Source: Longimicrobiales bacterium (GTDB lineage Bacteria; Gemmatimonadota; Gemmatimonadetes; Longimicrobiales; Gaopeijiaceae). From it: a DNA stretch of 64,000 nucleotides. Location: the NCBI GenBank assembly GCA_958295645.1, contig OY282361.1, forward strand, positions 1,702,501-1,766,500, given 5' to 3'. The position numbers and the translations under genes were made by a program. This document shows, one piece after another, positions 7,066-55,247 of the stretch (its first letter is position 1; each line of letters begins with the position of its first letter). The notes beneath the pieces were generated by a model. That model saw only the letters and a list, made by a program, of their open reading frames with translations, was not told the DNA's origin and searched no databases.

Positions 7066-7108
7066 AGCACGACGCGGGGGCGAAGGAAGGGCCGAAGGAG
7101 CCGGTCTG

Positions 7109-19902: not shown

Positions 19903-21468
19903 TCACCCGCCTCCTGCGCGCACTCTCGTCCAGCGCGTTCCGCTTGGCGTGTCCTCGATGCGGACTCCCTGGGCCGCGAGTTCGTCGCGGATGCGGTCGG
20001 CCGTCGCGAAGTCTCGGCGCCCGCGGGCTTCGTCGCGGGCTGCCACGAGCCGCTTGATGCCGTCCTCGGCGTCCTCTTCGAGCCTGCGCGACCCGTCTCC
20101 GAGGTCCAGAACGCCCAGCACGGCGTCGATTCCGGCTAGGGCCTGAAGGAGGGCTTGCCGGTCCTCGGATGCGATGCCGTGCGGGGCCGCGTCCATGGCG
20201 GCGTTGGCCTCCCTGACCATCGTCCAGAGTTCGGCCAGGGCGCGCGAGACGTTCAAGTCGTCGTCGAGAGCCCCGAGAAAGGCGTCCAGGCCGCATCGCG
20301 CGCGCTCCGCGAGGTTCGGGGTCGCCGGCGAGCCGGGAGCCGGGGGCGGGTTGGGCGAAGGCAGGGGGCTGGAGGCCGGGAGCGTGTCCGGGCCAGAGGC
20401 CGCGCCGGGGCCGGAGGGCCGACCGGAGGGAGAGGCCGAGCCCGGCGGAGAGGGCAGTTCGCGCACGCGGCGGCGGAAGTCGAGGAGCCGCTGCACTGCG
20501 GTCGCTGCGGCCTCCAATCCCGCGCGGGTGAAGTCGAGTTCGCTCCGGTAGTGGGCGGACAGCAGTATCCAGCGGATCGCGGCGGGATCGTGGCCTTCGT
20601 CCAACAGGTCGCGCACGGTGTAGTAGTTGCCGGCGGACTTGGACATCTTGCGCCCTTCGACCTTCAGGTGCTTGACGTGCAGCCAGTATCGCGCGAACGG
20701 CTTCCCCGTGGCCGCTTCGGACTGAGCGATCTCGTTCTCGTGATGGGGGAAGAGGAGGTCCTCGCCGCCCAGGTGGATGTCGATCGTGTCGCCCAGCATG
20801 GTGGTGCTCATGGCCGAGCACTCCAGGTGCCAACCCGGCCGTCCTTCGCCCCAGGGCGAGTCCCACACGGCTCCTGCCGCCCGGTCGGCCGGGCGCGCCG
20901 CCTTCCAGAGCGCGAAGTCCCGCGCGTCGCCCTTCTCGTATTCGTCGGCGTCGATTCGCGAGCGTCCCGCGTCCACCGCGCCCGCCTCGCCCACCCCGCA
21001 GCCCGACAGCCTCCCGTAGTTCTCGAACGAAGAGACGGAGTAGTAGACGGAGCCGTCGGCGGCGGCGTAGGCGTGTCCTTGGGCCAGGAGCCGCTTGATG
21101 AAGTCCGTCATCACCTCCACGAACTCGGTCGCGCGGGGGTGCTGGGAGAAGGGCAGCAGACCGAGGACCCTGGCGTCCTCCCGAAACGCGCGCACGAAGG
21201 GCTCGGTGTGCTCTTCGAGCGACCGTCCGGCCCCGGCGGCGCCCTCGATGGTCTTGTCGTCGACATCGGTCAGGTTGACCACGAACTCGACCTCGTGGCC
21301 GCGCGCTCGCAGGTGGCGGTGAAGCAGATCGTAGACGAGGAAGGCCCGGAAGTTGCCGACGTGGGCGAAGTCGTAGACGGTGGGACCACATCCGTAGACC
21401 GCGACCCGCGGCGGATCCAGGGGCGCGAAGTCCACCCGCTCGCGCCGCAGGGAGTCGTACAGCTTCAC
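19903..21468 (-). CDS. cysS: Cysteinyl-tRNA synthetase
   Basis: Charges tRNA-Cys. It is 521 residues long, about 60 more than the Escherichia coli enzyme. The zinc-binding YGCGPTVYDFAHVGNFR carries the HIGH-type motif (HVGN); WHLECSAMS, HHENEIAQSE and the KMSKS signature (RKMSKSAGN) are present. The extra length is a Pro/Ser/Gly-rich linker of roughly 50 residues near positions 345-395, between the stem-contact fold and the C-terminal helical domain. The GTG start is overlapped by the stop of a 25-codon duplicated mini-cistron (GTGA). Confidence 0.95.
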   Translation of the reverse strand: MKLYDSLRRERVDFAPLDPPRVAVYGCGPTVYDFAHVGNFRAFLVYDLLHRHLRARGHEVEFVVNLTDVDDKTIEGAAGAGRSLEEHTEPFVRAFREDARVLGLLPFSQHPRATEFVEVMTDFIKRLLAQGHAYAAADGSVYYSVSSFENYGRLSGCGVGEAGAVDAGRSRIDADEYEKGDARDFALWKAARPADRAAGAVWDSPWGEGRPGWHLECSAMSTTMLGDTIDIHLGGEDLLFPHHENEIAQSEAATGKPFARYWLHVKHLKVEGRKMSKSAGNYYTVRDLLDEGHDPAAIRWILLSAHYRSELDFTRAGLEAAATAVQRLLDFRRRVRELPSPPGSASPSGRPSGPGAASGPDTLPASSPLPSPNPPPAPGSPATPNLAERARCGLDAFLGALDDDLNVSRALAELWTMVREANAAMDAAPHGIASEDRQALLQALAGIDAVLGVLDLGDGSRRLEEDAEDGIKRLVAARDEARGRRDFATADRIRDELAAQGVRIEDTPSGTRWTRVRAGGG

Positions 21469-21562
21469 GATCTGCCGACTTCTGCGCGATGGCGCGTACC
21501 GCGCCCGCCGCCTTGCGTCCGACCGGAGTCGTACAGCTTCACGAGCTGCCTGCTTCTGCGCG
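21451..21562. repeat. 38-base direct repeat of the pyrF/cysS junction
   Basis: 21451-21488 and 21525-21562 match at 35 of 38 positions. Each copy carries GTGAAGCTGTACGACTCC on the minus strand. In the left copy this is the true cysS start; in the right copy the TGA is the pyrF stop and the overlapping GTG opens a 25-codon frame (complement 21465-21542). That frame's own stop overlaps the real cysS GTG. Confidence 0.85.
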
Positions 21563-22297
21563 GCCCGTCTCCGCGCTCCCGGCCAGGTCGGCGAACGCCT
21601 GCGCCGGGTCGAGGGCTTGCGTGACCGGACGGCCGACCACGACGTGGCTGGCCCCCGCCGCGAACGCCTCTGCCGGGGTTCGCACGCGCTTCTGGTCGCC
21701 CGCGTCGGCGCCGGGGGGACGGATGCCGGGCGTCACGATCGCCGCCTCCGCACCCAGCACGGGACGCAACAGGGCCGCCTCCGCGGCAGAGCAAACGACG
21801 CCGCCCAAGCCCGCGTCGCGAACCGCGGCCGCATAGCGCCGGGCCTCGGCGCCTACGTTCTGCACGCTGCGTCCGAGGACTCCGCCCAGCGACTCCGCGT
21901 CGTGCGAGGTCAGCACGGTGACGCCCAGCACGGTCGTGCCGGGCCCCGCGCCCGCTGCCGCGGCCCGCAGCATGGCCGAACCACCCATCGCGTGCACCGT
22001 CAGCAGGCTGGCGCCCAATCGGGACGCCCGCGCCACGGCCCGCGCCACCGTGTTCGGTATGTCGTGGAACTTGAGGTCGAGGAACACCTGCTTGCCTTTC
22101 TCGCGAAGCTCCGCCACCACGGCCGGCCCGGCCGTCGCGTACAGCTCCATCCCAACCTTGTAGAACCGGCAACCGTCGCCCAGCCGGTCCACCAGCGCGA
22201 GGGCGGTGGACGGGCTCGGGAAGTCGAGGGCCACGATGATCCTGCCGCCTTCGACGGAAGACGGAGGCCGGGCAACCACGATGCCCCCGCCGCTCAT
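21539..22297 (-). CDS. pyrF: Orotidine-5'-phosphate decarboxylase
   Basis: Last step of UMP synthesis; 252 residues. Catalytic tetrad region FLDLKFHDIPNT (Lys, Asp) is present, with IIVALDFPS at the first strand, VHAMGGSAM, and the phosphate-binding PGIRPPGADAGDQKR and VVGRPVTQA. The ATG start overlaps the pyrD stop (ATGA), so the two pyrimidine enzymes are translationally coupled. The stop lies inside the duplicated junction shared with cysS. Confidence 0.93.
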   Translation of the reverse strand: MSGGGIVVARPPSSVEGGRIIVALDFPSPSTALALVDRLGDGCRFYKVGMELYATAGPAVVAELREKGKQVFLDLKFHDIPNTVARAVARASRLGASLLTVHAMGGSAMLRAAAAGAGPGTTVLGVTVLTSHDAESLGGVLGRSVQNVGAEARRYAAAVRDAGLGGVVCSAAEAALLRPVLGAEAAIVTPGIRPPGADAGDQKRVRTPAEAFAAGASHVVVGRPVTQALDPAQAFADLAGSAETGRAEAGSS

Positions 22298-23352
22298 GGA
22301 ACCGTCATCTCCCGAGGGACCGTCCGCTCGTCCCGAGGAGCCGTCCGCCCATCAACTGGTTCAAGCTCGCCGACCTGCCCGCGCCCGACTCGTCGCGACG
22401 CCGACGCCGGCCGACCGCGCGCTCGCTCGAGCGCGTCGTACGCCAGCGCCCGGGCGATGCGAGCCGCGCAACGGGGGTCGGCGAACGAACCCGTGCCGAC
22501 CTGCACGAAGGTGGCGCCCGCGGCCAAGTAGGCGCGCGCGTCCTCCGGCGACAGGACGCCGCCCGAGCCGGCCACGGGAACGCGGGTGGCCGCCGCGACT
22601 GCCCGAACCGCCGCCAGTCCCGTCGGCAGAAGAGCCGGGCCGCTCGTCCCTCCCGGCCCCGCGCCCAGCCGCGCACCGCCGTCCGTCCGCAACAAGAGTC
22701 CCGGCATGGTGTTGACGGCGGTGATTCCATCCGCGCCGCGAGCCGCGGCCGTGGCGGCGGTGGCGCCGATGTCGGGATCGTTGGGCGCAAGCTTGGCCAG
22801 CAACGGGCGCGAGGTGAGAGGCCGAACCTCGTCCAGGATCTCCCCCATCGCCGCACCGTCCAGACTGAACGGTCTGCCGCTGGCGTGTTCGTCGTTGGGA
22901 CAGGAGAGGTTGAGTTCGTATCCCAGGAAGCCGTCCTCCGCGTCCAAGCCGCGCACCACGGCCGCGTACTCGGCGGCGGACCGCCCCGCGACCGAGACCC
23001 AGACCGGCAGTCCGCCCAACGCCCGGGCCATCCAAGGCAGCTTCTCGCGCCGGACGGCCTCCAGCCCCGGGTTGGCGAGCCCCACCGAGTTCAGCATCCC
23101 CTCGGGAAACTCCGCCACTCTCGGCGCGGGGTTGCCCCGGCGCGGCTCCACCGTCACCGACTTCGTGACCAAGGCGCCCACTTCCGACGGCGACATCACG
23201 GCGACGACGGGTTCGCCGAATCCGCAGGTGCCCGCCGCCAGCCACACCGGGCCGGCGAACGAAGCCCCAAAGGCGGACACCACGCCGACGGCGCTCTCCG
23301 CGGGGGCGCCCTTTCCCGCGGGACTCCGGCCGACTCCCGGCGCAAGGCTCAC
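22294..23352 (-). CDS. pyrD: Dihydroorotate dehydrogenase, class 1
   Basis: Oxidises dihydroorotate to orotate. It is 352 residues long, with the class 1 cytosolic signature: catalytic Cys in ELNLSCPND, LAKLAPNDPDIG, ITAVNTMPG and the flavin-phosphate loops GSGGVLSPEDA and VQVGTG. The C-terminal tail after about residue 305 is a low-complexity Arg-rich extension that includes two 7-residue repeats (RTAPRDE, RTVPREM). The GTG start overlaps the stop of a 48-codon repeat ORF. Class 1B enzymes need a PyrK electron-transfer partner, which is not seen here. Confidence 0.92.
   Translation of the reverse strand: MSLAPGVGRSPAGKGAPAESAVGVVSAFGASFAGPVWLAAGTCGFGEPVVAVMSPSEVGALVTKSVTVEPRRGNPAPRVAEFPEGMLNSVGLANPGLEAVRREKLPWMARALGGLPVWVSVAGRSAAEYAAVVRGLDAEDGFLGYELNLSCPNDEHASGRPFSLDGAAMGEILDEVRPLTSRPLLAKLAPNDPDIGATAATAAARGADGITAVNTMPGLLLRTDGGARLGAGPGGTSGPALLPTGLAAVRAVAAATRVPVAGSGGVLSPEDARAYLAAGATFVQVGTGSFADPRCAARIARALAYDALERARGRPASASRRVGRGQVGELEPVDGRTAPRDERTVPREMTVP
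22299..22340. repeat. 21-base tandem repeat at pyrD-pyrF junction
   Basis: Two adjacent 21-base units (22299-22319, 22320-22340) encode the repeated RTAPRDE/RTVPREM at the pyrD C-terminus and run into the pyrF ATG. Each unit holds a CTCGGGA(G/C) stretch that could serve as a ribosome-binding site for pyrF. Confidence 0.6.
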
Positions 23353-23495
23353 TCGCGATCCTCCACGGCCCTCGGCGCAACATTCATTGGGCGGTCGTCG
23401 ACGGCTCTCGGCGCGACATCCATCAAGCGCTCCTCGGCAACTCTCGACACAACGTCCATTGAGCGCTCCTCGGCAACTCTCGGCGCAAGGCTCAT
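23349..23495 (-). CDS. 48-residue repeat mini-ORF linking smpB and pyrD
   Basis: Short frame made almost only of four 12-residue repeats of the form M-x-V-A-P-R-V-A-E-E-R-x. Its ATG overlaps the smpB stop (ATGA) and its stop overlaps the pyrD GTG (GTGA), so ribosomes could pass from smpB through it to pyrD. Every repeat begins with ATG preceded by a GAGGA or GAGGAG Shine-Dalgarno-like stretch, so each can initiate. It is probably a translational coupler rather than a functional protein; no family is recognised. Confidence 0.45.
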   Translation of the reverse strand: MSLAPRVAEERSMDVVSRVAEERLMDVAPRAVDDRPMNVAPRAVEDRE

Positions 23496-23499
23496 TCGC
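23356..23499. repeat. 36-base tandem repeat, four copies, each with RBS and ATG
   Basis: Units at 23356-23391, 23392-23427, 23428-23463 and 23464-23499. Read on the minus strand each has a start codon; the best pair reads GAGGAGCGCTCAATG, with GAGGAG six bases from ATG. The beginning of pyrD (MSLAPGVG) and the end of smpB (ERAVKERE) look like decayed fifth and sixth copies. There are no unique spacers, so this is not a CRISPR array. Confidence 0.85.
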
Positions 23500-23962
23500 G
23501 CTCCTTGACGGCTCGTTCGGCTTCGCGGTCCATCGTCTTTCGCCTCAGCTCCTCGCGGCGGTCCCGGTGCTTCTTCCCGCGGCACAGCGCCAGCGTGACC
23601 TTGGCCACGCCCCGCCGAAAATAAATGTCCAGCGGGATCAGGGTGAGCCCCTTCTCCTCCATCTTGGCGATCATGCGGCGGATTTGGTCGCGGTGCAGCA
23701 ACAACTTGCGGGGACGGGTCTCGTCGTGATTCCACCGGTTGGCGCCGCCGTAGGGAGAGACGTGCAGGTTGTAGAGCCACAGTTCGCCCGCCGCGGGACG
23801 CGCGTGAGCGTCCTGGAACGCGACCTTCCCTGCCCTCACCGACTTGACCTCCGTCCCGTGCAGGACCAGGCCCGCCTCCCAGGTGTCCAGGATTTCGTAG
23901 GCGTGGCGGGCCTTCTTGTTGCGCGCCACGACTCGCCGCGAGCGCGCCGGAGTCCCCGTCAA
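23492..23962 (-). CDS. smpB: SsrA-binding protein SmpB
   Basis: Binds tmRNA and delivers it to stalled ribosomes. About 156 residues from the TTG at 23962, which overlaps the transpeptidase stop (TTGA); GTG at 23929 would give 145. Family landmarks are ARNKKARHAYEILDTWEAG, HGTEVKSVRAGKVAF, LHVSPYGGANRWNHD, RPRKLLLHRDQI and the basic tail with GKKHRDRREE. SmpB proteins usually have 10-20 residues before the ARNKKAR motif, which favours the TTG. No tmRNA gene is visible in the window. Confidence 0.92.
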   Translation of the reverse strand: MTGTPARSRRVVARNKKARHAYEILDTWEAGLVLHGTEVKSVRAGKVAFQDAHARPAAGELWLYNLHVSPYGGANRWNHDETRPRKLLLHRDQIRRMIAKMEEKGLTLIPLDIYFRRGVAKVTLALCRGKKHRDRREELRRKTMDREAERAVKERE

Positions 23963-24723
23963 AAGATGAGAACCGGCGTCCCGACCTCGACCATGTGGTA
24001 GAGCTCGCGGGCCGCCTCGTTGGTGAGGCGAATGCAACCGTGGGAGACTCGCCGTCCGTCCGCGTCGGGGACCAAGATAAGTTCCGGCCGCTCCGTGCCG
24101 TGGATGGCGATGCCGTCGCCCAAGTAGATGGCGGTGTTGCCCATGGCGCCGGGAATCCGCCGCGACCAGTGATCGGGGCTGGGGACGGGCCGTCGCCGCT
24201 CGACGAAATACCAGTCCGGCGCCACCCAGACCGGGTCCTTCTCCTTGCGCCGCACTCGGAAGAGGCCGCGCGGGGTGGAGAAGGTCCACCGCTGCCCGGC
24301 CCCCGCCAAGCGAAACCCGGTGCCGGTGCCGGCCGGGGCCGACCAGAGAAGATCCGCCCCGTCCGCCCAGTAGACGCGGCTCGTCTGCAAGTGAACCAGC
24401 ACGTACGGTTCGCCGAGGTCCGCCAAGGGCGACGCCAGGGACGTGAAGCCGTCGGCGGCGGGGTCCCCGAAGAAGTCGGCGCCGGTGCCGGCCCGGTCGT
24501 CCTCCTGAAGGGCGGTCGCGCCCACGGCCGCGGCGGTTCCGCAGACGATGTTCGCGCAAGCAACGAGGAGCCCAATCCAGGCCGAACGGCCGCAGACGGC
24601 GGCCAGCCCGGTCCAAACCGAACCGCAACAAGCGACAGCCGACTTGGTCCAGACCGAACGGCCGCGCGTGCGCGGTGAAGTCCGCCCTGCGCGACCGCGC
24701 GGACTCCATGCGCGAACCCTCAC
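23959..24723 (-). CDS. Secreted L,D-transpeptidase (YkuD fold)
   Basis: Cross-links peptidoglycan or attaches proteins to it. About 254 residues. The catalytic motif [10 protein letters not shown]...SHGCIRLTN has the nucleophilic Cys, and the region before it has the YkuD strand [12 protein letters not shown]. The GTG start overlaps the transaldolase stop. The N-terminus is odd: a basic stretch, then three 12-residue repeats beginning [24 protein letters not shown] and [12 protein letters not shown]. These supply the hydrophobic part of a signal sequence or anchor and are encoded by a 36-base tandem repeat. Confidence 0.85.
24571..24678. repeat. 36-base tandem repeat, three copies, in transpeptidase 5' end
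   Basis: Units at 24571-24606, 24607-24642 and 24643-24678 share a (G/A)TCCA-CCGAAC core. They are in frame with the L,D-transpeptidase and encode 12-residue repeats in its signal region. The period equals that of the smpB-pyrD repeat 1.2 kb away, but the sequences differ. Confidence 0.75.
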
Positions 24724-25816: not shown

Positions 25817-25850
25817 GGCAGGTCCAACTTAAGAGGGAGCGTCCCTGCGG

Positions 25851-53828: not shown

Positions 53829-55247
53829 TCACTTGCTCGCAGGAGCCCGCCGGCCCACTGCGGCCCCCGGCGCGACGACACGCAAGACGCGAGCCGCGGA
53901 CCGTTCAAGGTCGTCGCTGACCACTCCTGCGAGCAGGCTGTCGTTGCCGGCCATGGGACGGAACCCGTCCGGCAAGGAAACCGCCCCTAGGAACGTCGCC
54001 TCCGTGCCGCCAACGTCGAAGATGTCCCACAACCTGCTCGCGTTCGGCCGACCGAGAGGGCCAGCGTACTCGTCGTCCACGCCAAGACCCCGCTCCACCC
54101 ACAACGCGCCCGGCGGACCCCAGAAGACATTGGTGATCATGGGAAACGATTCGATTCCGTCGGCCATGTCGACCGGTGGGGCCGACCTCCGCACGAGGGA
54201 CGACCAGTCTTCCGGCGCCTCGCCCGGGTGCGCGAGGTGGCGACGCAGGTCTCTCAGGAACGAAGCCGTGGGCCGCCGCTGGGACACGTCGCGAGCGATC
54301 GTGCCAAGGGTGTCGCCTGACTCGCCGGCGATGACGTGCAGAACGTATTTGTCGCCGTAACCGGCCACCACACGACCCTCGGGCATTGAAGCCAACAGCG
54401 GAAACGCGCGAAACGGGTTGAAGAGGCGCATGAAATCGTCCGCTCGGCGCTTGTGCCACACCCGACTCCCGTCCGACGCGCCCAACACCATCGCAAATAG
54501 CCCGCCGTCGCTCACGTCCGCCGTCATTCTCCACGCGATGACGTTGCCAGCTGCGAGGGCCACCTTAACGGTCATGCCACCGACGGACGGCGCACTCCAC
54601 CGGCGGGTTTCAGCACCCTGCCAAGTGTAGAGTCCTGTGCGCATCCCGGCGGCGACAATGGTCTCGCCCTCAATGCCGACCATGACCACGCCGTCTAGTT
54701 CGCCTGGCCCATCTCCCATTCTGCCCCATTGCGCCACGACGTCTCCCTCCGCGGAGACGACAGCGATCTGTGGAGCGTCGGTCGAGCCATAGTCCGAAAC
54801 CACGATCCGGCCGTCGTCGAACATGGCCATGGCCACGATCACACCGAAGTGAAGCTCGGAATCGTCGAAGCCGATCGTAAACACTTCCTCCGTGCGCACG
54901 CCTACGCCGGTTTGGCCTTCCGCCCCAAGTGCTTCCGCTGCAAAGACGACTGTCCCGACCAGCGCGAAGCACCATACGAGCACCGTTAGCTTGTCAGGCT
55001 TTTTCTTGCGACGGACGTAATCGGCCAAGACTGCGATCGTCAGCAACAACCACGTCGCGGAAACGAGAATTTTCCCGATTGCGAGGCCTGTTTGGCTTTC
55101 CGTTGCCAAGACGACTGTCCAGGCCAGCGTGAGGCAGCACCATACGACCACCATTCCCTTGTCAGGCTTTTTCTTGCGACGGACGCAAACGGCCGATACT
55201 GCGATCGTCAGCAACAACCACGTCGCGAGAATGAGAATGTTCTCCAT
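53829..55247 (-). CDS. 6-bladed beta-propeller protein with duplicated membrane hairpin
   Basis: About 472 residues. The N-terminal 110 residues contain two copies of a 56-residue unit: hydrophobic [10 protein letters not shown], basic VRRKKKPDK, a second hydrophobic segment and a QTG turn. The rest is a beta-propeller with blade motifs [43 protein letters not shown] and [14 protein letters not shown] at 55247 is preferred since AAAGGAG lies five to six bases upstream. It is a paralogue of the next gene in line (31 bases upstream). Related propellers are abundant in soil and marine Gram-negatives; ligands are unknown. Confidence 0.72.

Follow-up and report, generated by a model that had tools for sequence, protein, structure and literature searches.

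A stop-start overlap duplicated in tandem, and a candidate coupled mini-cistron, between smpB and pyrD of a Gemmatimonadota bacterium

Termination-reinitiation at 4-nt overlaps is strict (PMC6728339, PMC10666635), and at gaps of ~20 nt coupling is nearly abolished (PMC10666635). In mycobacteria, the repeats known as MIRU contain an internal ORF coupled to a gene at -4 (Supply 1997, as described in the review PMC12548453); they form a dispersed, apparently mobile family, and their coupling is thought to soften what the insertion does to the neighbouring gene (PMC12548453). In the synthetic bicistronic design, a short leader cistron hands ribosomes to the next gene (PMC5995908). Tandem repeats of constant size have been described in Bacillus (PMC8161180), where, in the accessible text of that paper, they are abundant in some species only, have mostly fixed units of 52 or 20-21 nt and show no tie to stop-start overlaps.

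The locus described here lies in a 64,000-nt stretch of DNA (the window, whose positions are used throughout) from a single-contig, 2.89-Mb genome of a marine-type bacterium of a Gemmatimonadota lineage. Like the termination-reinitiation coupled pairs, its mini-cistron has ATGA and GTGA overlaps at its two ends; unlike them, where two ordinary genes are joined, the overlap itself is duplicated and a new cistron lies between. With MIRUs it shares a short ORF-bearing repeat placed at stop-start (DTGA) overlaps with both flanking ORFs. However, no homologous family is dispersed at many loci, 45 bridging spacers of this genome being only locally similar, and the array is therefore not a MIRU; nor did it arrive from elsewhere, being made of the sequence of the local junction. 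In contrast to the engineered leader cistrons it is natural, sits within an operon and was born by duplication, and as in Bacillus it belongs to a genome rich in tandem repeats. We found no description of junction duplications that create cistrons in a literature search that left most subscription papers outside, and a search by term found no mention of duplication in the accessible text of PMC10666635 and PMC12548453.

Read along the minus strand, the genes are tal, a YkuD-type L,D-transpeptidase gene, smpB, ORF48, pyrD, pyrF, a second mini-ORF and cysS (Table 1), and the nearest named relatives of the SmpB are Gemmatimonadota metagenome-assembled genomes. The original prediction, a 36-base unit repeated four times between smpB and pyrD, holds in substance: Tandem Repeats Finder (TRF) returned period 36 with a score of 138, and the period-36 identity is 0.72, whereas 5000 shuffles reached at most 0.47, so that the head-to-tail copies exceed chance, as in a minisatellite. 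The four units are diverged, and the last is 35 rather than 36 nt long. Also borne out is the 48-codon ORF formed by the array, which translates as MSLAPRVAEERSMDVVSRVAEERLMDVAPRAVDDRPMNVAPRAVEDRE followed by the stop; its ATG overlaps the smpB TGA (ATGA, 23495-23492), and at the other end its TGA and the pyrD GTG overlap (GTGA, 23352-23349), placing it on the same strand and at -4 to both neighbours, as in coupled pairs. A Shine-Dalgarno sequence and an ATG had been proposed for every copy. ATG1-3 are indeed preceded by Shine-Dalgarno-like sequences (duplex energies -7.5 to -7.9, compared with -9.3 for pyrD), but unit 3 (GACGACCGCCCA) has GACGAC instead, leaving ATG4 at 23387 with -1.9. As the four ATGs share a single frame, the array forms one cistron, not four.

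Table 1. Positions in the window of the genes, mini-cistrons, array units and duplicated junctions
Feature	Position	Strand	Evidence or remark
smpB (SsrA-binding protein), GTG start	23492..23929	-	NCBIfam NF003843/TIGR00086, E 2.6e-57
smpB/pyrD junction copy 1 (smpB tail, ATGA, ORF48 start)	23476..23512	-	86% to 23333-23369, 37 nt
ORF48, 48-codon mini-cistron formed by the array, ATG to TGA	23349..23495	-	
Unit 1 (u1), 36 nt	23460..23495	-	Left half copies pyrD head
Unit 2 (u2), 36 nt	23424..23459	-	
Unit 3 (u3), 36 nt	23388..23423	-	No Shine-Dalgarno (GACGAC)
Unit 4 (u4), 35 nt	23353..23387	-	Right half copies smpB tail; holds pyrD Shine-Dalgarno
smpB/pyrD junction copy 2 (ORF48 tail, GTGA, pyrD head)	23333..23369	-	Matches copy 1
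pyrD (dihydroorotate dehydrogenase), GTG start	22294..23352	-	Pfam PF01180, 7e-57
pyrF (OMP decarboxylase)	21539..22297	-	Pfam PF00215; ATGA overlap with pyrD
pyrF/cysS junction copy 1	21525..21562	-	92% to copy 2, 38 nt, 74 nt apart
pyrF/cysS mini-cistron (VKLYDSGRTQGGGRGTRHRAEVGRS, then stop)	21465..21542	-	Overlaps each neighbour by 4 nt
pyrF/cysS junction copy 2 (true cysS start)	21451..21488	-	
cysS (cysteinyl-tRNA synthetase), GTG start	19903..21468	-	Pfam PF01406

The array unit is a fusion of the head of pyrD (MSLAP) with the tail of smpB (RAVKERE, similar to RAVEDRE). Since the smpB tail and pyrD head recur together 143 nt downstream with 86% identity over 37 nt, the array represents its own junction in amplified form, and the ends of smpB and pyrD, which had been taken for decayed extra copies, are better read as its two donors. 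The array is absent from the ~30 nearest relatives (SmpB 70-77% and PyrD 66-75% identical), in most of which the smpB stop overlaps the pyrD start directly by 4 nt, as GTGA or ATGA. The comparison of copy number among related genomes that had been proposed as a check thus has nothing to compare. The condition that had been named as refuting the idea, a lack of the repeat in close relatives, came out as such a lack in every relative tested, all of them outside the genus. In more distant genera (L012, L014, L019, L024, L123), 0.8-1.3 kb of DNA separate smpB from pyrD, and smpB is followed by an amidase-like frame (VVIDPGHGG) in certain other relatives, L016 and L022 among them. The founding event was a tandem duplication of a GTGA overlap of smpB and pyrD, with a seed of probably 35 nt at the similarity of GAGCCG (smpB) to GAGTCG (pyrD), to which in-frame copies of 36 nt would then have been added to give the total of 143 nt.

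A second junction of the same operon shows the same pattern on a smaller scale. The pyrF/cysS junction, CGCGCAGAAG...TCGTGAAGCTGTACGACTCC, occurs twice, 74 nt apart, with 40/60 matches between the copies, where none of 20,000 null draws exceeded 33, and the mini-ORF between them resembles CysS at its start and PyrF at its end. Among relatives, pyrF and cysS overlap directly in a few and are separated by a spacer of 20-80 nt in most. Both distances, 143 and 74 nt, are of the form 3k+2. When a duplication of this length spans an NTGA overlap, the resulting ORF reads the head of the downstream gene and then the tail of the upstream gene, both in their native frames, and is therefore open by construction and stops exactly at the second overlap. 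With remainder 0 the first start is fused to the downstream gene, whose product gains an N-terminal extension, and with remainder 1 the ORF is out of register; these consequences are arithmetic rather than inference. One gene of this genome (C1 ~2029880-2031055, L140/L180/L200/L243 sample) has three in-frame N-terminal copies of VNARMRxAGSRRRD, the remainder-0 outcome of a junction duplication.

The frame rule was suggested by the window itself, and the frame bias was retested with the window left out. Genes were called in 2.06 Mb of the same genome with a home-made codon-bias model, and each stop junction was scored against the DNA downstream, with a cut-off of 14.5 (null maximum 14.0 in 6000 mismatched pairs). 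Duplicated same-strand junctions numbered 16/1121 here and 0/434 in relatives, the latter a small control of 0.4 Mb of one relative plus short loci of others. Among the 13 of start type, the distance left remainder 2 in ten, 0 in two and 1 in one (binomial P 0.0016), and no bias towards remainder 2 was found in the null for such junctions. The 3k+2 excess is genome-wide: for the 95 spacers in which both the stop and the start are of the form xTGA, (gap+4) mod 3 was 2, 0 and 1 in 54, 25 and 16 cases, respectively (P 2e-6), compared with remainder 2 in 15/44 control spacers from one relative and three unrelated high-GC replicons, and it survives two other rules for calling starts, removal of the window and removal of recognisable duplicates. 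Gaps bridged by mini-ORFs amounted to 57/736 (7.7%), compared with 8/320 (2.5%) in the controls (Fisher P 7e-4), which are likewise small and include 0.55 Mb of the unrelated replicons. Once the frame bias is allowed for, openness contributes little more: 27 bridged gaps of 41-100 nt were observed where 23 were expected, given the frame, from shuffled gaps. The downstream starts of bridged pairs resemble those of -4 overlaps in Shine-Dalgarno strength and start codons, and are unlike unbridged starts.

Most of the other bridged junctions contain one mini-ORF only, and some of the bridging ORFs are ordinary genes that the caller missed, one of them yidD-like and placed before yidC. Single mini-cistrons precede purA-, rpe-, recG- and purQ-like genes, two 12-codon ORFs precede a xanthine-dehydrogenase-like gene and three short ORFs are chained before a CyoE-like gene, all of these names coming from reading the translations rather than from family searches. 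Repeated units are found in the chain VSLGAP, VSFGAP and VSLDAP, each closed by a stop, before VSLEERL (17-nt unit), and in the pair VTPSGAVARCQA and VTPGGATARCQA, likewise each closed by a stop, before VTPGGAAPAR (35-nt unit). Within the window, three further spacers (25817-25850, 1626-1665 and 7066-7108) are bridged by mini-ORFs with a 4-nt overlap to both neighbours.

We consider it likely that these local duplications have been tolerated since they leave neighbouring genes translationally coupled through termination-reinitiation. Reinitiation being strict, and nearly abolished by some 20 nt, a 139-nt spacer with no mini-cistron would be expected to uncouple pyrD from smpB. With the mini-cistron in place, each end of that spacer retains a -4 overlap. 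Coupling from smpB through ORF48 to pyrD is predicted from this anatomy: ribosomes ending smpB would reinitiate on the mini-cistron, and those ending the mini-cistron at the pyrD start would reinitiate on pyrD, so that coupling would outlast the insertion, by which it would otherwise be broken; the peptide itself is presumably irrelevant. The same event took place at pyrF/cysS and, across this duplication-prone genome, at many further junctions. Junction duplications are probably frequent here, and those of length 3k+2 would persist as coupling is kept; duplications of other lengths, which would lengthen the downstream gene or break its coupling, are seen less often. The wider proposition, that tandem duplication of stop-start overlaps under 3k+2 is a recurrent birth route for coupled mini-cistrons, even relays, in operons, with selection for coupling as a genome-wide length filter, we regard as evenly poised. 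It yields a testable rule, namely that duplications across a 4-nt overlap should survive at length 3k+2. If true, new small cistrons would have a simple way of arising, the strength of selection on translational coupling could be read out within a genome, and MIRUs and engineered bicistronic leaders would have a natural counterpart.

Against coupling-preserving duplication stands the view that the array is a neutral minisatellite whose place at the junction is accidental and which leaves translation unaffected, pyrD starting independently at its own strong Shine-Dalgarno sequence. This genome does carry 9.5 tandem arrays per 100 kb, compared with 4.2 in the relative G066 (17 compared with 2 for arrays of at least three copies), half of them outside genes or across gene ends; the pyrD Shine-Dalgarno sequence is good, and ORF48 is without detectable selection. 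Such neutrality nevertheless leaves unexplained both the 3k+2 excess, at start-type junctions as in spacers, and the overlap-like look of the bridged starts, and we judge it unlikely. In the original prediction, the array was instead a possible ribosome relay that raises or tunes pyrD translation by copy number. The relay fits the two 4-nt overlaps and the many other bridged junctions, but the copy-number part is unsupported, given that the ATGs share one frame, unit 3 lacks a Shine-Dalgarno sequence, the array is absent in relatives and the codon statistics carry no sign of selection. That every unit is a ribosome entry point and the unit count sets pyrD output is therefore very improbable, even though ATG1-3 have Shine-Dalgarno-like sequences at good spacing, all three read through to the stop that overlaps pyrD, and the array region folds less than its shuffles (z +2.5): none of the ~30 nearest relatives has another copy number, and elsewhere single mini-ORFs prevail, with a strong Shine-Dalgarno sequence at only 30% of mini-ORF starts.

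It is scarcely credible that ORF48 encodes a functional small protein of which the repeats are protein repeats. The 36-nt period is divisible by 3 and the open frame has a gene-like low GC at the second codon position, but the product has no Pfam match and a neutral codon score, 49% of neutral simulations leave its frame open, and the peptide, absent in relatives, joins the PyrD head to the SmpB tail as a chimera. Substitutions among the units by codon position gave a mixed pattern with no clear sign of selection. An RNA-structure element was rejected on the weak folding and on an Rfam result consisting of a sub-threshold Twister-sister on the opposite strand, and a dispersed or mobile element on BLAST, which found no further copies in the genome and none in plasmids.

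Other repeats and local peculiarities were seen in passing. The same operon has another 36-nt tandem array (24582-24665, 2.3 copies) in the tal/YkuD spacer, 1.1 kb upstream of the smpB/pyrD array; at 54933-55242, a 168-nt unit repeated 1.9 times spans a gene start, and in L131 (4102-4226) a stop-containing 40-nt unit is present three times at a gene end that faces a convergent gene. Inside pyrD, a stretch at 23101-23136 (GCGCCGAGAGTGGCGGAG, APRVAE) is similar to units 1 and 2, by chance or conversion. PyrD here also has an N-terminal extension of ~20 residues (23284-23352) relative to most relatives, with other extensions in L121 and L120.
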